Of a DNA stretch of 64,000 nt, positions 38,913 to 46,627 are shown piece by piece. The stretch's first letter is position 1. Every line of letters begins with the position of its first letter. The translations under genes were made by a program, and so were the position numbers. A model generated the notes under the pieces. It was not told the DNA's origin. It saw only the letters and a list, made by a program, of their open reading frames with translations, and made no database searches. The DNA is from Pseudarthrobacter sp. NIBRBAC000502772 (lineage in GTDB: Bacteria; Actinomycetota; Actinomycetes; Actinomycetales; Micrococcaceae): contig NZ_CP041188.1 in NCBI RefSeq assembly GCF_006517235.1, positions 186,001-250,000 of the forward strand, in the 5' to 3' direction.

Positions 38913-38954
38913 CGGCCGTGTTCCGGCGTCAGTCCTTGGCCCGGAACACGGCCG
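38913..38954 (-). terminator. Perfect 14-bp inverted repeat spanning the LAL stop codon
   Basis: CGGCCGTGTTCCGG (38913-38926) pairs exactly with CCGGAACACGGCCG (38941-38954) around a 14-base loop. The right arm encodes the last residues of the LAL protein. On the minus strand the hairpin is followed by GGCTTTTGC, so it could end the ben operon message. Confidence 0.6.
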
Positions 38955-41811
38955 CGAGCTCGCTGCGGGAGCGGATTCCCATTTTCCGGTAGAGCCGGGT
39001 CAGGTGGTACTGCACGGTCTTCTCCGCCAGGAACAGCGCCCGGGCCGCCTCCTTGTTGGTGGCGCCGCCCGCCACCAGGTCGGCCACCGCCCGTTCCTGC
39101 GCCGTGAGCTGCAGGTGGTGGGTGCCGACTGCGGTGAGCACGGGGTCGGCAGGGTCCGGCACGTTCCCGGCGTCGAGCCCTGTTGCTTTGAGTTCCCTGT
39201 CGCACCGTTCCACGTAGGTGGCCGCCCCCAGGGTGTCGTATAAGTCGCGGGCCGCGCGCAGGACGGTCGACGCCAGGCGCCGTTTGCCCGCCCGGCGCAT
39301 GCTCTGGCCGAAGGCAAAGCTAACCCGCGCCCGCAGATACGGCCGGTTGAGCCCCCTCAGGTGGCCCAGGGATGCCTCAAAATGTTCCCTGGCAGTGTCC
39401 GGGTCTCCCTGCGCGGCCACGAGCCGGCCCCTCGCCCATGCCATCCGTGCCATGTCCGAGGGTATTTCCCGTTCGCGCGGCACACGCTCGAACGCCGTGA
39501 GGAACGAGTCGGCGGCCTCGAGCTGGTCGGTCATGACAAGGGCGTTGACGTAGGTGTCCTGCCAGGGCCAGAAGGACACCCGGTGCTCGGTCCACGGGTC
39601 CAGCTCCGTCAGCGGCTGCAGGACAGCCAAAGCGCCTTCATAGTCCGCCCTCGCCTCGTGGAAGCGGGCACGGGCGAGGCTCGCCGGCACCTGCATGGCG
39701 CGGTAGGTTCCGGGCTGCACTGCGGCCTGGGAAACGTAGTACCGGGCCCGCTCCCAGTCTCCCCGCATGGACCAGAGCTCCGCCGCGGTCCAGTAGAGCA
39801 GTGGGCGGATCAGCGGCATCCGCGAGGTCTCCAGGCGCACGGATGCGCGCGCCACGGTGGCGGCCGCCGCATCCCAATTGCCGAGTACCAGGTGGGTCCG
39901 CGCAAGCCATGCCTCGGCCCAGAGGGAAATCCGCATCGAGCCGCCGCGGTCAGTGGGGGCCGCGGACTCGAAGTTCACCAGCGCCGTCTCAACGTTGTCG
40001 AGGCGCAGAGCCAGCCAGCCCGCGCCCATCTGGACCCGCTGTTTCTGGGCGTTCTCGTCGGCATGTTCGAAAGCCCGGTGATAGGAGGCCTCAGCCTCCG
40101 CAACCCGGCCCTGTGCATACAGGCCCAGGCCGTAGATGGCCTCTGATTCAATGTGGGCGGGGGTTTCCGGCGGCGTAAGTTCCATGGCCCGTTCCGCCCA
40201 GGTGGTAATCATCGGGCCGTCCCAGGACGCTACCCCGTGCAGGACGAAGCGCTGCGCCACCTGCGCGGCGGCGGACGGATCATGCTGCGGGTTGGAGGTG
40301 CGCCAGGCCATCTCCAACTGCGTCTGCGCGCTGTCGTTCTGTCCCGACGCGGTGGAGAGGTAGCCCAGGACGGAGGAGCGAAGCGGCGACGGCGGCAGGG
40401 CGTCCACTGCCGCCGTCCACATCTGGGCCTGGGAAATGTTGCCGGAACCCACCAGGGCATCCACCGCCCGCAGGAGCCTGTCGTTCCGGGAGCGGATGTC
40501 CAGGGAAAGCCGGGACGCGGAGAACAAAGCTGTTGAGGCATCCTGCCACGCTCCTACCCTGGCCTGGCGCCGGGCGAACTCCTCCAACTCCTCCGCCAGG
40601 GCCTCGTTCGCGCCGGGGGTGGCGGAGACCCGATGGCCCAACCGGTCACCCTCGGGCTGCACCGCTTCAGCGGCCAGCCGATGAAGCGCAATGCGCCGGC
40701 TGGGAACGATCTGTTCGTAGATGGCCTCTGAGGTGCCTGGTTCAAAGAACACGACGGCGGAGCGGGCCTGATCAACAGTCAGCCCCAGCAGCCCGGCACG
40801 GTGTCCCTCATCGAGTGCCTCCATGACGGACCCCACCCCGCTGACTTCGGAAACCTCTGCCACGCTTGCGGCGCTCCCGAGCACTGACGCGGCCTCCGCC
40901 ACAGCAACCAACACCGGGGATGCTGCGCCCAGGACACTACGCACCCGGGCGCGCACACGGGAAGTCGGCGGGAGGGAGGGAAACCACGTCTGCCAGGTTT
41001 CCGCCGGCAGCTCATGGAGCAGCTCCACGATCGGTTGAGCAAGCCCTCCGGTGTGTTGGACAAGGCCATGGGCCGCCGTCGCGCTCAGTTCGACGCCGAG
41101 CGTCCTTCTCGCGAGATCCTGCACCTGCTGCGGGGTGAGCGGATCCAGCGGGATGGTGGCCACCTGGTGGCCTGTCAAGAAGTCCAGCGCACCGGTAGGG
41201 ACGCGCGCAGCGTCATCGGGGTTGAGGGTGAGCACGAACAGGATTCGTTTTCCGTGCAGCCGGCGCATGACGAAGGTAAGGATGCGCAGGCTCTCCACGT
41301 CGAGTCTGTGGACATCATCCACGGCGACAACTACGCTGCCGTGCGACTGCAGCCCTTCCAGGTGGGTACTGAGGGTGGAAGCGTAATTAACAACCTGGGC
41401 GGGAGTGAGGGCCGCGACGGGGCCGGCGGGCAGGGCCGGGCCGCCGCCGTAATCCTTTGCCGAACGCAGCGGCGAAGTGAGCATGAGCTGGGAGTAGCCG
41501 GCGAGGGGGAACTGCGCCTCCCACTCATCGCCCATGGCGGACAGCACACGGACACCACGGACCCCGGTGCGGCAGTGCTCAAGGAATAAGTCCAGAACCG
41601 CGGTCTTCCCGGACCCGGAGGGGCCGGAGATCACCACGGCACCCACTTTGCCTTTGCGGACGGTCCGGAAAATCTCCAACAGTTCCGCAAAGACCGTCCT
41701 CCGGCCAACAAGCGGTGAGTCCTCCGCCATTTCACCGTGTATGGAGGCCGCCGTCATGGCGGCAACTCTACCGGAGCCGTCCTGCCGGCCCCGGCGGCGG
41801 CCTTCCATCAC
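38929..41811 (-). CDS. Large LuxR-family (LAL/STAND) regulator, probable activator of the ben genes
   Basis: This 960-residue protein has an N-terminal AAA/STAND ATPase (Walker A GPSGSGKT, residues 63-70; Walker B VVVAVDDVH near 168), a long helical/TPR-like middle, and a C-terminal LuxR helix-turn-helix (about 895-955, with TNKEAARALFLAEKTVQYHL). Such proteins switch on genes when a ligand triggers ATP-driven assembly. It is the last gene of the ben operon, starting eight bases after the benD stop (TGAGGA serving as the ribosome site); the GTG at 41811 or the ATG at 41808 is the start. From memory, a LuxR-type BenR controls benzoate genes in Corynebacterium glutamicum; this is the likely counterpart. 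Confidence 0.85.
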   Translation of the reverse strand: MMEGRRRGRQDGSGRVAAMTAASIHGEMAEDSPLVGRRTVFAELLEIFRTVRKGKVGAVVISGPSGSGKTAVLDLFLEHCRTGVRGVRVLSAMGDEWEAQFPLAGYSQLMLTSPLRSAKDYGGGPALPAGPVAALTPAQVVNYASTLSTHLEGLQSHGSVVVAVDDVHRLDVESLRILTFVMRRLHGKRILFVLTLNPDDAARVPTGALDFLTGHQVATIPLDPLTPQQVQDLARRTLGVELSATAAHGLVQHTGGLAQPIVELLHELPAETWQTWFPSLPPTSRVRARVRSVLGAASPVLVAVAEAASVLGSAASVAEVSEVSGVGSVMEALDEGHRAGLLGLTVDQARSAVVFFEPGTSEAIYEQIVPSRRIALHRLAAEAVQPEGDRLGHRVSATPGANEALAEELEEFARRQARVGAWQDASTALFSASRLSLDIRSRNDRLLRAVDALVGSGNISQAQMWTAAVDALPPSPLRSSVLGYLSTASGQNDSAQTQLEMAWRTSNPQHDPSAAAQVAQRFVLHGVASWDGPMITTWAERAMELTPPETPAHIESEAIYGLGLYAQGRVAEAEASYHRAFEHADENAQKQRVQMGAGWLALRLDNVETALVNFESAAPTDRGGSMRISLWAEAWLARTHLVLGNWDAAAATVARASVRLETSRMPLIRPLLYWTAAELWSMRGDWERARYYVSQAAVQPGTYRAMQVPASLARARFHEARADYEGALAVLQPLTELDPWTEHRVSFWPWQDTYVNALVMTDQLEAADSFLTAFERVPREREIPSDMARMAWARGRLVAAQGDPDTAREHFEASLGHLRGLNRPYLRARVSFAFGQSMRRAGKRRLASTVLRAARDLYDTLGAATYVERCDRELKATGLDAGNVPDPADPVLTAVGTHHLQLTAQERAVADLVAGGATNKEAARALFLAEKTVQYHLTRLYRKMGIRSRSELAAVFRAKD

Positions 41812-41818
41812 GGTGTCC

Positions 41819-42646
41819 TCAGCCCAGGTCCCCGCCGGCGACCGGGAGGATGCTGCCGGTTACGTAGGACGCTTCATCTGATCCGAGGAACACGATGGGT
41901 GCAGCCTGTTCGTCCAATGTCCCGTAGCGCTTTATGAAGGACGAGTCCACGGTTTGGTCAACGATCACCTGGTACCAGGCCTTTTCCGTGGCGGATTCTG
42001 CCTCGGGTCCGCGCTTGACCCTGCGGGCCGGCGCCTCGGTGCCGCCGGGGGCTGTCGCCACCACGCGGATGCCGCGTCCTCCCACCTCCATCGCCAATGA
42101 TTGGGTGAGGGCGTTGACTCCACCCTTTGCTGCCGCATACGGCACGCGATGCATGCCGCGGGTAGCCACCGAGGATACGTTGACGATGGTGCCTGAACCC
42201 TGTTCCAGCATGGCCGGCAGCACGGCCCGGCAGGTCCAGAGGGTGGGGAAGAGCGAGCGGCGGATCTCCTTCTCGATCTTCTCCTCGTCGTACTCTTCAT
42301 ACGGGCGTGCCCAGATGGTGCCGCCAACATTGTTAACCAGGACGTCCACCCGGCCGTGGGCGGCCAACGCCGCGTCCACGGCCTGCTGCGCACCCGCGAA
42401 GGTCTCAAGGTCTGCGGTCACCGAGGTAGCCGAGCCTCCCGAACCGGAAGCCTGCGCGGCCGCCTGGATCCCCTGAGCCACCTCATGGACCAGCTCGGCC
42501 CGGTCTACGAGGACGACGGCGCCGCCCTCGGCACCGATGCGCTCGGCCACCTTCTGGCCAATGCCCTGGGCGGAACCGGTCACCAGCGCGACCTTGCCGG
42601 CGTACCGGCCGGGAGTAACGAACTGTCCCGCATATGGCCGCGTCAT
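41819..42646 (-). CDS. benD: Benzoate cis-diol dehydrogenase BenD
   Basis: This 275-residue short-chain dehydrogenase oxidises and decarboxylates the benzoate cis-diol to catechol using NAD. The cofactor motif TGSAQGIG (residues about 23-30), the NNVGG stretch and the catalytic YAAAK are intact. Its ATG overlaps the benC stop as ATGA, and the LAL gene follows eight bases after it. The length and order match ben operons. Confidence 0.95.
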   Translation of the reverse strand: MTRPYAGQFVTPGRYAGKVALVTGSAQGIGQKVAERIGAEGGAVVLVDRAELVHEVAQGIQAAAQASGSGGSATSVTADLETFAGAQQAVDAALAAHGRVDVLVNNVGGTIWARPYEEYDEEKIEKEIRRSLFPTLWTCRAVLPAMLEQGSGTIVNVSSVATRGMHRVPYAAAKGGVNALTQSLAMEVGGRGIRVVATAPGGTEAPARRVKRGPEAESATEKAWYQVIVDQTVDSSFIKRYGTLDEQAAPIVFLGSDEASYVTGSILPVAGGDLG

Positions 42647-44217
42647 AAGCGGCCCGTCTTGGCGTCGATCGCTCCGGCCATGGTGTCTTTGGCATCGCGT
42701 GCGTGGGCCATGATGACCTCCCGCACCCGTACCTTGTCCTGCCGCTCAAAGGCATCAACCACATCAAGATGGTCCTGCGTGACCCGCTCGAAGATGGGGG
42801 TTCCGGCTTCGAAGGCCGCGGCCATCTGGGCGTGGACGTCGAGCCGTCGGTAGGACTCAAGCAGCATGGGATTGTCGCAGACCACGAAGAGGTATTCGTG
42901 GAACTCTTCGTTGGTCCGTGCGAACTCCTCCGGTTCCCGGACGGTGCCGGCTGCTACTGAGCGGATGGTGGCTTCGGCGAGCCGCCGGAACTGGTGCAGC
43001 TGCTCCTCGCTGAGGCGGCCCAGCATCAGCTCGCTTACCGCAAGCTCCAGGCCCATGCGCGCGTCCAGCTGGGCGAAGCTGTCCTCCTTGCGGAAGTCCA
43101 GCCAGCCGGTCTCCAGGGAAGAGACCGCCTCGCTGCGGCTCATCGCGTCGCCTTCGGCCTCGATTTTTTCCGCAGGTGCCGGTGCACCCGTTTCCGCGTC
43201 ACCCCCGGTGGTTTCCTTGGGGGCAAACCGCTCGAAGTAGAAGTTGGCGGGCTTGATGCCCTCAGAATCCAGCCACTTCGACACGGCGTTGACCATGGGA
43301 GGCGGACCGCACAAGTAGATGTCGACGTCGCCGTCGTTCAGGTGCTTCGGCTCGATGATCTGGGTGACATAGCCCGTGTGGGGAGCAGATGTGCCCGGCT
43401 CGGAGGCAATGTAGTCCCAGGTGAATGCGGGCAGCTTCGCCCCATACTCGCGCAACCAGTCCAGGCCGACGATGTCCGCCTCACGGGTCAGGCCATAAAT
43501 GAGATGGACCGGTACCGACGGCGGGTTCTCGGAAAGCTTCTCGAGGATGGACAGGAGCGGGGCCAGGCCGGTGCCGCCTGCCAGGAGCAGCAGGGGTCGC
43601 TTGGGCTCACGGAGGAAGAACGAGCCGTAGGGGCCGGTGAACTCGATGGTGTCGCCCACCGCTGCCTTGTCCCGCAGGTATTCGGACATCGCACCCTGCG
43701 GCGTCACCCGCACCATGAACGACGCATCCTGCACCTCGGGGCCGCTGCTGAACGAATAGGAGCGCTCCGCGTCCGTTCCGGGGACCTTAATGTTGACATA
43801 CTGGCCCGGGAGGAAGGCCAGGGCGTCCCGGTTTTCCGCCTCCAAGGTGAAGGAAACTGTCGTTTCCGAGTGCTTGTTGAGTTCCTTCATGGTGGAGGTG
43901 AAGGTGGTGGCTGAGGTTTTCGCCGATTCCGACGTTGCAGGGATCTGAATGGCCAGGTCCGACTCCGGAACCGCCTGGCAGGTGAGCAGGTATCCCTTTT
44001 CGAGCTCCTCCTCCGTCATCGCATCGTCAATGTAATCGCCCGGATCGAAGGAGCCGGAATCGCAGAAGGCCTTGCAGGTGCCGCACGCCCCGTCCCGGCA
44101 GTCCGACGGAATGTTGATCCGTGCCTTGTACGCGGCGTCCATCACGGTCTCGTAATCGCCGACCTTGATGACCTTGGTGACGCCATCCTCGAAGCTGAGG
44201 GCTACTTTGTGGCCCAT
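42643..44217 (-). CDS. benC: Benzoate 1,2-dioxygenase reductase BenC with a fused C-terminal FCD domain
   Basis: Residues 1-335 are a normal BenC: a plant-type [2Fe-2S] domain with C40, C45, C48 and a fourth Cys near 82, an FAD part (ERSYSFSSGPE) and an NAD part (AGGTGLAPLLSI, CGPPPM). It passes electrons from NADH to BenAB. After an Ala/Glu/Gly-rich linker (336-365), about 160 residues match the FCD ligand-sensing domain of GntR regulators: NEEFHEYL (N438, H442), DHLDVVDAF (H485) and MAHARDAK (H507) keep the metal-binding pattern. No DNA-binding domain is present. The ATG at 44217 has AGGAGG seven bases upstream. The normal protein is about 340 residues. Confidence 0.93.
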   Translation of the reverse strand: MGHKVALSFEDGVTKVIKVGDYETVMDAAYKARINIPSDCRDGACGTCKAFCDSGSFDPGDYIDDAMTEEELEKGYLLTCQAVPESDLAIQIPATSESAKTSATTFTSTMKELNKHSETTVSFTLEAENRDALAFLPGQYVNIKVPGTDAERSYSFSSGPEVQDASFMVRVTPQGAMSEYLRDKAAVGDTIEFTGPYGSFFLREPKRPLLLLAGGTGLAPLLSILEKLSENPPSVPVHLIYGLTREADIVGLDWLREYGAKLPAFTWDYIASEPGTSAPHTGYVTQIIEPKHLNDGDVDIYLCGPPPMVNAVSKWLDSEGIKPANFYFERFAPKETTGGDAETGAPAPAEKIEAEGDAMSRSEAVSSLETGWLDFRKEDSFAQLDARMGLELAVSELMLGRLSEEQLHQFRRLAEATIRSVAAGTVREPEEFARTNEEFHEYLFVVCDNPMLLESYRRLDVHAQMAAAFEAGTPIFERVTQDHLDVVDAFERQDKVRVREVIMAHARDAKDTMAGAIDAKTGRL

Positions 44218-44340: not shown

Positions 44341-44877
44341 TCAGATCATGTAGACGTCCACTACGTGGTGGATGTAGTCGTTCTTGAGGACAACCTTCTT
44401 TTTCATGATGACCGGCTCGGCGCCGGCGAGGTCGATCGTGTAAAAGCTGGTGCCGAAGTACGTGTCCGTGGTGTTGTACCGGAAGTACAGGGTGAACCAG
44501 TTGAAGCGCACCTTCACCTGGCCGCCGTCGTGCTCCATGATTTCGACGTCGGTGATGTTGTGCCCGGTGCGGGGCTCCGGCAGGGAGGTGGCCGAGGACC
44601 GGTCCGTCTTGATCCGGAAGACGCGGTCCTCAATGCCGCCGCGGTTGTCATAGTAAATGAGCGAAATCTCGTTCTGCGGGTCCCCGGTCAGCCGGTCATC
44701 GACGTCCCATGCAGGCATCCAGAACTCCGAGTCCGGGTGATAGCACTGAAGCCACTCATCGAACTGGCGGTCATCCAGCAGGCGGGCCTCCTTGTAGAGG
44801 AAGGCGCGGACGGTTTCGAGGGTGGCGATCTCCTCGGCGCTCTTGAGCGCCGCAGCGGGCTGTGTCAGGTTGGTCAT
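44341..44877 (-). CDS. benB: Benzoate 1,2-dioxygenase small (beta) subunit BenB
   Basis: This 178-residue protein is the SnoaL/NTF2-like beta subunit of a ring-hydroxylating dioxygenase. Recognisable blocks are ETVRAFLYKEARLLDDRQFD and WLQCYHPDSEFWMPAWDVDD at the start. It has a structural role in the alpha3-beta3 enzyme. It lies 36 bases after benA. The start is supported by an AGAGAG site. Confidence 0.95.
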   Translation of the reverse strand: MTNLTQPAAALKSAEEIATLETVRAFLYKEARLLDDRQFDEWLQCYHPDSEFWMPAWDVDDRLTGDPQNEISLIYYDNRGGIEDRVFRIKTDRSSATSLPEPRTGHNITDVEIMEHDGGQVKVRFNWFTLYFRYNTTDTYFGTSFYTIDLAGAEPVIMKKKVVLKNDYIHHVVDVYMI

Positions 44878-44913: not shown

Positions 44914-46296
44914 TCAGGCGGTGACTGGAACGGCGTCCAGCGCGGAAGTCTCTTCCTCCGCCAGAGCCCGGTCCATGACTTCTTTCCAGTACCCGTGCTG
45001 GATGGGGTAGAGCCCCTCGTCCTCGGTGCGCACCCCGGACGCGATGACCTTGGTCATGCCCAGCGCCTGGGCCTGCTCGTCGGGGCCCGCGATCTCATGG
45101 GTGGAACCGCGGGTCATGTCATTCCAGGGCGCCGAGGTGGCCCAGTAAGTCTTGTTGCAGGACCGGAACTCCTCGAGGTCATCGGGAGTGGCCATGCCGG
45201 TGGCATTGAAGAAGTCCTCGTACTGGCGGATCCGCTTGGACCTGTTCTCCTGCGATTCGCCCTTGGGCGCGATGCAGTAGATGGTCACCTCGGTCTGGTC
45301 CGCCGAGATGGGCCGGAAATGGCGGATCTGCGAGGAGAACTGGTCCATAATGTAGACATTCGGGTACAGACAGAGGTTCCGCGAGATGTTGATCATGAAG
45401 TTGGCCATCTCCTCGCCGTACTTCGCAACGAGCTCGTCGCGGCGGTCCCACAGCGGGCGGTCCTCCGGGTTGGTCCATTCCTGCCACAGCAGCAGGTGTC
45501 CGTGGTCGTAGGAGTAGAAACCCCCCTTGACCTTGCCCCACTTGCCGGCGTCCATGGCCTTGGTCTTGTTGGCGGAGTCGCCGGCGGTGCGGCGGGCCGT
45601 GGTGGCCGCATAGTTCCAGTGCACGGCGGTGACGTGGTAGCCGTCTGCACCGTTCTCGGCCTGCACTTTCCAGTTGCCGTCGTAGGTATAGGTGGACGCC
45701 CCGCGCAGCACCTCAAGCCCCTCCGGGGACTGGTCCACGATTGAGTCGATCACCTTGGTGGCATCACCCAGGTGTTCTTCGAGCGGGAGCACGTCAGCCT
45801 TCAGGGAACCAAAGAGGAATCCGCGGTATGACTCGAAGCGGGCCACTTTGGTGAGGTCGTGGGAGCCCTCTTTGTTGAAGGTCTCCGGGTAGCCGGCGTT
45901 GCGCGAGTCCTTCACCTTCAGCAGTTCACCGGAGTTCTTGAATGTCCATCCGTGGAAGGGGCAGGTGAAGGTGGTGCGGTTGTCCGTCTTGCGGCGGCAC
46001 AGCATGGCGCCCCGGTGTGAGCAGGCGTTGACGATGCAGTTAAGGTTTTCGTCCTTGTCGCGGGTGATCACCACGGGAGTGCGGCCGATGTTTGTGGTGA
46101 AGTAGTCCCCCACGTTGGGGATCTGGGATTCGTGGGCGAGATAGACCCAGTTGCCTTCGAAGATGTGCTTCATCTCCAGTTCGAAGATCTCTTGATCGGT
46201 GAAAATTTCGCGCTTCGCACGGATGACGCCGTTCTCACGGTCGTCGATCACGGCGTCGGCAAGGACCTCGCGGACATGGGCCAGGTTCTCGGTCAT
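44914..46296 (-). CDS. benA: Benzoate 1,2-dioxygenase large (alpha) subunit BenA
   Basis: This 460-residue oxygenase subunit hydroxylates benzoate to its cis-diol. The Rieske cluster ligands are C92-S-H94 and C112-P-F-H115, and the mononuclear iron histidines are H221 and H226 in [12 protein letters not shown]. The ATG at 46296 is preferred: AAGGAG lies six bases upstream. The gene heads the ben operon and is divergent from catA across a 331-base control region. The substrate assignment rests on the benABCD order and on the catechol genes either side. Confidence 0.95.
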
Positions 46297-46627
46297 GGCG
46301 TGCTCCTTCATTGGAGGGTGCTGGACGGATAGGCGGGGGGTCCGGGCCAACCCGCGGTGCCCAGGGGGACGTTGTCACGCCAGTCTTCCTTACGGTGACC
46401 GCACTCACATCAGGCAAACACCTAGCTTCGGCCAAGGGTGTCTTTATGTCTGGTTAATGACAGAAAACAGGCCAAATCGATATTTGTAGCGTCCTTATTT
46501 GAGGCCTACGATGAGACGGTCATCACGCGAGCTGCGTCGCGACAGGTTCAGATCCTGCCCCCACCGGTTCGCACCGGGTTCAGGAGCAGTTCCTGTCCCC
46601 TATTCAAAGAGGAGTATGGACATCACC
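46297..46627. promoter_or_regulatory. Divergent benA/catA control region
   Basis: This 331-base gap separates the two divergent starts and has to contain the promoters for the ben operon and catA. The part at about 46400-46510 is AT-richer and holds a partial dyad AACACCT (46418-46424) with AGGGTGT (46435-46441). The LAL and CatR-type regulators are the likely binders. A sequence AAAGAGGAG at 46606-46614 is the catA ribosome site. Confidence 0.55.

Follow-up and report, generated by a model that had tools for sequence, protein, structure and literature searches.

The window analysed here, a stretch of 64,000 nucleotides from contig NZ_CP041188.1 of Pseudarthrobacter sp. NIBRBAC000502772, carries a ben cluster on the minus strand, in the order benA-benB-benC-benD-LuxR-type regulator. 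Its benC, which lies between benB and benD, encodes a reductase extended by a ligand-binding-type (FCD) domain:

38929..41811, minus strand: large LuxR-type, ATP-binding regulator (AAA_16 and GerE models), adjoining benD
41819..42646, minus strand: benD, benzoate diol dehydrogenase (SDR), 275 aa; NF040811, 421.8 bits, cut-off 380
42643..42646, minus strand: ATGA, the 4-base overlap of the benC stop and the benD start
42643..44217, minus strand: benC-FCD gene, 524 aa
42670..43089, minus strand: FCD domain, residues 377-516; Pfam match to residues 384-507 at 42697-43068
43090..43218, minus strand: linker, residues 334-376; low confidence (pLDDT 26-43 in the block 331 to 370)
43219..44217, minus strand: BenC reductase core, residues 1-333; 2Fe-2S ferredoxin, FAD and NAD domains
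44341..44877, minus strand: benB, dioxygenase small subunit; TIGR03232, 266.5 bits, cut-off 225.55
44914..46305, minus strand: benA, dioxygenase large subunit; TIGR03229, 822.4 bits, cut-off 780.95

BenA, BenB, BenC and BenD each score above their own NCBIfam equivalog cut-off. For BenC, NF040810 yields 482 bits against a curated equivalog cut-off of 430, and positions 1-332 of its 333 align to residues 3-333, i.e., the whole model is covered. Among 25 aligned short-form FCD proteins, C40, C45, C48, C80, R152-S155, G214-G217 and C303-P306 are invariant; we take the four cysteines to be those of the 2Fe-2S cluster and the remaining motifs to bind FAD and NAD. Score, kept cofactor motifs and ben neighbourhood point to a BenC that is predicted to pass electrons from NADH to BenAB. 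The BenC of structure 1krh, which shares the ben gene neighbourhood, matches with 358.7 bits over residues 2-332 (the whole reductase core); but 1krh, with 338 residues, ends at the core, whereas the window protein adds the linker and the FCD. The LuxR-type ATPase beside benD is probably the regulator of the cluster.

The FCD domain and its predicted metal site

The initial annotation held that this BenC continues into an FCD domain of the kind found in GntR regulators, and proposed that either the lack of an FCD match or a different predicted fold would refute it. The Pfam FCD model (PF07729) matches residues 384-507 with 58.1 bits (gathering cut-off 24.3) and the C-terminal domain has the all-helical FCD fold; since the two results agree, a spurious match can be rejected. 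Also as claimed, the DNA-binding part is missing: no GntR or HTH Pfam model matches the window protein at E<=1, so that the winged helix that precedes the FCD in a GntR transcription factor is absent. Nor are two genes misread as one, because the frame is single and stop-free in the window and in its relatives. The exception is Pseudarthrobacter sp. Fe7 (L050, 5956-8258), where benC lies in two overlapping frames, through either a frameshift or a sequencing error.

The metal-site N/H/H/H pattern, which had likewise been read from the sequence, is kept here and in other fused FCDs (counts over 109 distinct fused FCDs, with L038 and L050 left out for frame problems):

43057..43059, minus strand: R387, aligned with NanR R128 (carboxylate salt bridge); kept in 108/109
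42910..42912, minus strand: N436, aligned with the metal ligand NanR D172; Asn in 107/109
42898..42900, minus strand: H440, aligned with NanR H176; 109/109
42769..42771, minus strand: H483, aligned with NanR H222; 109/109
42703..42705, minus strand: H505, aligned with NanR H244; 109/109

These residues match NanR one to one, and their sequence is that of the metal-binding FCD subgroup (Asp or Asn plus three His at the metal site). In NanR, zinc is held by D172, H176, H222 and H244 together with the carboxyl and hydroxyl of the ligand, whose carboxyl is held by R128 (PMC8012715, in the portion available). Atu1419/VanR has a zinc site of Asn and three His (N137, H141, H192 and H214), with spacings of 4 and 22 residues that equal those of the BenC FCD, and uses R86 to bind citrate. 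The metal by itself stabilises this protein, and replacing all three His lowers the melting point by almost 20 degrees (PMC7797058, in the portion available). Invariant histidines are therefore no proof of sensing. The FCDs of GntR regulators (NanR, Atu1419/VanR, TM0439 and LldR/CGL2915) share with the BenC FCD the fold, the metal-site residues and spacing, and the carboxylate Arg, and Atu1419 shares its Asn variant as well; the BenC FCD differs in that it lacks the winged helix, sits on an electron-transfer enzyme, and forms a subfamily of its own.

The FCD is constrained, yet less so than the reductase core. Compared with eight relatives (NG86), its dN/dS is 0.07-0.24 in seven pairs and 0.34 with the diverged L042, and that of the core 0.03-0.10 and 0.34 in the same pairs, so that purifying selection is evident in seven of eight and the FCD value is 1.8-3.7 times the core value in the seven close pairs. 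The full-length structure model is weak (25 sequences, pLDDT 73, pTM 0.53) and poor in parts of the known core too, and hence says nothing firm about the arrangement of the domains.

Distribution, fusion partners and origin

The BenC-FCD fusion is widespread and present in many soil actinobacteria; the suggestion that longer BenC forms exist in other actinobacteria proved correct, and includes a corynebacterium (L049). A peptide search recovered BenC-FCD at 44 of 53 loci, with one frameshifted and eight that stop at the core (all eight in Pseudomonadota), in a sample that leans towards the FCD because two of the six search peptides fall in it. Among 39 near relatives (own genome counted), 11 of the 12 with a BenC-like match have the FCD. 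A strong BenC match was present in 14 of 394 genomes of the class, 12 with the FCD, the other two being G377, without it, and a distant reductase of 38% identity in G254. Within one actinobacterial family (f19), a strong match is present in 61 of 201 genomes, of which 57 carry the FCD: 19 as BenC-FCD with a linker of ordinary length, six with a long linker, and 32 as BenC-FCD-BenD (the remainder comprising three without FCD and one cut by a contig end). Across 138 distinct cores there are 72 BenC-FCD, 37 BenC-FCD-BenD and two BenC-FCD-P450 proteins, and 27 without an in-frame FCD, which include two L050 frames, the contig-cut L125 and L164, and the distant reductase L103. Pseudarthrobacter sp. 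GA104 has two benC-FCD copies (L025 and L045), distant from each other on one contig.

Two surveys led us to reject the idea that Pseudomonadota commonly carry the BenC-type FCD: in 399 Burkholderiales genomes, none of the 12 BenC matches reaches the FCD, and among 398 genomes of Pseudomonadota the top FCD matches (six genomes at E<=1e-12) score at most 68 bits, sit in frames of 234-346 aa, and resemble GntR regulators. Among plasmids and large replicons, six records align with 80% or more of the query, five from Paraburkholderia and one from Tsukamurella; these Paraburkholderia replicons lie outside both of the surveys above.

In BenC-FCD-BenD, the last FCD helix continues directly into BenD with no linker in 47 of 47 fused copies, unlike the BenC-FCD linkers, which are long and variable (98-186 residues between reductase and FCD in 32 BenC-FCD-BenD rows). 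By pattern match, the SDR Tyr-x3-Lys is kept in all 32 fused forms and the reductase cysteine motif in all 59 representatives. The motif R-x-[IVLS]-[ACGF]-[GAR]-Q occurs, in up to three copies, in the linkers of 30 of 32 BenC-FCD-BenD proteins and of none of 27 other forms, and is possibly a short binding motif (e.g., DARAIAGQ-x-h-F/L in L128, L134, L190, L195, L196 and others). Group g147 (L165, L166, L168, L169 and L171), which has a separate benD, has Pro/Ala-rich linkers of 171-212 residues with repeats that resemble IAARPVGYTPPAPG. Where benC and benD are unfused, the two genes mostly abut or share a few bases: of 71 FCD-bearing pairs, 34 have a gap of -1 and four a gap of -4.

Both of the Paraburkholderia replicons examined (two of the five) encode a reductase-FCD-P450 protein (L104, 8001-10790, and L220, 4995-7868), the first assigned by Pfam and the second 90% identical along L104, with a reductase-FCD linker of about seven residues. 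This BenC-like reductase-FCD-P450 is a possible self-sufficient P450 of unusual build. Its neighbours are an AraC regulator, an SDR, an FAD-dependent oxidoreductase and a NIPSNAP protein.

Fused FCDs score about 142-255 bits against fused-FCD profiles and GntR regulators at most 68, and when the Paraburkholderia rows were removed from the profile, their FCDs still reached 142-149 bits, and none of the GntR regulators scored exceeded 63. Recent capture from a local GntR gene is rejected, as the window FCD scores 216 bits and the best other FCD of the genome 46. In the FCD tree, the fused FCDs form one clade against 15 GntR FCDs (99/97), with a BenC-FCD-BenD clade inside it (98/97); the trees are midpoint-rooted, with long GntR branches flagged, and L038 was dropped from the FCD tree and L105 and L104 from row set A3. 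In the reductase tree, the P450 forms are sister to actinobacterial BenC (97/85), and the FCD-less L101, L161, L162 and L163 are nested inside FCD-bearing clades; because L073 sits at the base without a clear placement, the clearly nested losses are four of the five FCD-less actinobacterial BenC. L101 falls within the BenC-FCD-BenD clade, although it lacks the FCD and its benD is a gene of its own. These placements make a single gain of the FCD, followed by several losses, probable. In L136 (G377), which lies within the BenC-FCD-BenD clade, benC has no FCD and benD is a separate gene, the FCD having apparently been lost as the fusion split. Since all five FCD-less BenC sit in complete benA-B-C-D-regulator clusters, the FCD is dispensable. 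The idea that FCD-bearing BenC marks a substrate variant was discarded, as the BenA of FCD-less and FCD-bearing clusters are similar (69-77% identity to the window BenA at the five FCD-less loci).

The FCD recurs on a second kind of NADH reductase. Searching the 394 class genomes with the fused-FCD profile returned 12 BenC at 216 bits or more and then three matches at 92-98 bits that are built unlike ordinary regulators, each in one genome, which combine Flavin_Reduct, a GntR winged helix (27.9-33.7 bits, cut-off 27) and an FCD (L252, 1483-2706; L253, 739-1950; L254, 1483-2643). Their FCDs are the nearest found outside BenC: they score 87-92 bits against the BenC-FCD profile (GntR regulators scored, at most 63) and form one clade with the BenC FCDs (99/99), apart from 14 GntR FCDs; a clade of the BenC FCDs alone has weak support (81/41). 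They thus resemble the window protein in carrying a same-clade FCD on an NADH-side reductase, and differ in that the winged helix is kept, the reductase is of another type, and the metal site is eroded: the N and the first His remain, the third position is His in two proteins and Gln in one, and Tyr occupies the fourth. Because all lack the fourth His and one the third, the metal site is not retained across the whole clade, which counts against the explanation that we favour below. We know of no study of these proteins. L253/L256 adjoins a divergent frame that, by eye, resembles a luciferase-type flavin monooxygenase.

We infer an order in which a regulator became fused to a flavin reductase, after which the winged helix was lost and the FCD moved to BenC. 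Speculatively, a single FCD lineage may have left gene regulation to become a movable redox-control module, first on flavin reductases, then on BenC, and later as the connecting piece within BenC-FCD-BenD and BenC-FCD-P450; for benzoate degradation it would read the dioxygenase product, a metal-chelating alpha-hydroxy carboxylate, and so couple the NADH-using to the NADH-making step.

A possible control point on NADH use and its alternatives

The explanation that we favour, to which we give about an even chance, is that the BenC FCD derives from a regulator and places an NADH reductase under allosteric control by a ligand, much as the MarR domain does in AbHpaC. A working reductase core would then carry a C-terminal allosteric gate: the FCD would hold a metal through N436, H440, H483 and H505 and, with R387, bind a carboxylate of the pathway, and binding would alter the rate of NADH oxidation and of electron passage to BenAB, such that an idle or blocked pathway would neither spend NADH nor leak it to oxygen. 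When substrate is absent, Rieske oxygenase reductases can oxidise NADH to no purpose and generate reactive oxygen. The likeliest ligand class would be a metal-chelating carboxylate. The dioxygenase product, 1,6-dihydroxycyclohexa-2,4-diene-1-carboxylate, bears a hydroxyl and a carboxyl on one carbon, as do sialic acid and citrate, which FCD regulators bind; because regulators with such a site bind carboxylates at the metal and the diol is of the chelating type, the diol is our first candidate and benzoate the second. The P450 form, which does not have the benzoate diol as its product, speaks against the diol as sole ligand. The fusion suggests that a chemical of the pathway controls the cell's spending of NADH, with the FCD as a putative small-molecule sensor, as the initial annotation had supposed.

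The closest functional precedent is AbHpaC (C1; structure 5zc2), in which the MarR domain holds back flavin reduction as long as 4-hydroxyphenylacetate is not bound, an effect of at least 30-fold (PMC10816480, in the portion available). By this analogy, the FCD would gate the use of NADH by BenC. Both are NADH-using reductases of aromatic-ring oxygenases with a C-terminal regulator-derived domain; but AbHpaC joins a diffusible-flavin reductase to a MarR domain, with ligand control measured, whereas the window protein joins a ferredoxin-FAD reductase to an FCD and its control is inferred, and neither the Flavin_Reduct nor the MarR Pfam model matches it. Structure 5zc2 is among the matches of a flavin-reductase relative, and these relatives together with AbHpaC favour ligand control of NADH use, in line with the first of the two purposes that the initial annotation had offered (tuning of NADH use). 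The precedent is limited in that its domain is MarR, not FCD, and the faster change of the FCD relative to the core counts against gating.

A regulator domain on a reductase is thus of a known kind; its placement on a Rieske-oxygenase reductase, in three architectures and with a flavin-reductase sister, seems undescribed in the open literature, where our searches met no text that discusses BenC with an FCD, the BenC-FCD-BenD form or FCD-P450 (subscription papers lay outside the search). A Rhodococcus TG-1 benC-xylZ is labelled 'FCD domain-containing protein', with no comment in the available portion of the source (PMC11858498). If the FCD gates, this would be, to our knowledge, the first Rieske dioxygenase ferredoxin-FAD reductase known to have its own metabolite sensor, and avoidance of futile NADH use could be tested directly by truncation. 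BenC-FCD-BenD and BenC-FCD-P450 offer natural models from which to design self-sufficient biocatalysts that contain their own switch or joint.

The strongest competitor, tentative in our estimation and clearly less probable than gating, is that the FCD is a dimerising hub that joins the NADH-consuming reductase to BenD, which remakes NADH, or to a P450, its metal being structural and nothing being sensed. Regulator FCDs do oligomerise and are stabilised by metal (PMC7797058, in the portion available). The single BenC-FCD-BenD polypeptide in 32 of the 61 BenC genomes of family f19, the linkerless FCD-BenD joint beside long and variable BenC-FCD linkers, the mostly touching or overlapping separate genes, and the position of the Paraburkholderia FCD between reductase and P450 all agree with such a hub, and the fused polypeptides favour a bridge between redox partners, which keeps alive the other purpose offered by the initial annotation, the anchoring of other Ben proteins. 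However, a pure hub needs neither the invariant metal-site triad nor the carboxylate-binding Arg, exerts no covalent hold where BenD is a separate protein (the window protein and 71 further distinct copies), and leaves aside that benC/benD overlap is common also without an FCD. It accounts for the fusions at least as well as gating, but not for the invariant pocket, and the two could hold together. Even a scaffold alone would mean that a regulator domain has repeatedly been reused outside transcription.

It is improbable that the FCD takes the unstable diol from BenAB and hands it to BenD, i.e., channelling in place of allostery: the tight FCD-BenD joint of the fused forms and a site type that binds carboxylates beside the metal would suit a hand-off, but the P450 and flavin-reductase versions have no BenD, and the buried pockets of solved FCD regulators (citrate in Atu1419 is 8.4% exposed; PMC7797058, in the portion available) fit sensing better. 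We consider it very improbable that the domain is a stable relic of an earlier fusion and now serves no function; its loss without loss of the ben cluster would agree with this, but its low dN/dS, invariant site residues, and occurrence in two phyla and three fusion contexts do not. Hardly credible is a pairing with the FCD of a GntR regulator that reports the state of the reductase to transcription: FCDs dimerise and the genome holds 33 other FCD matches, but the BenC FCD is distant from them all (its score is 216 bits, that of the runner-up 46) and the neighbouring regulator of the cluster is a LuxR-type ATPase without an FCD.
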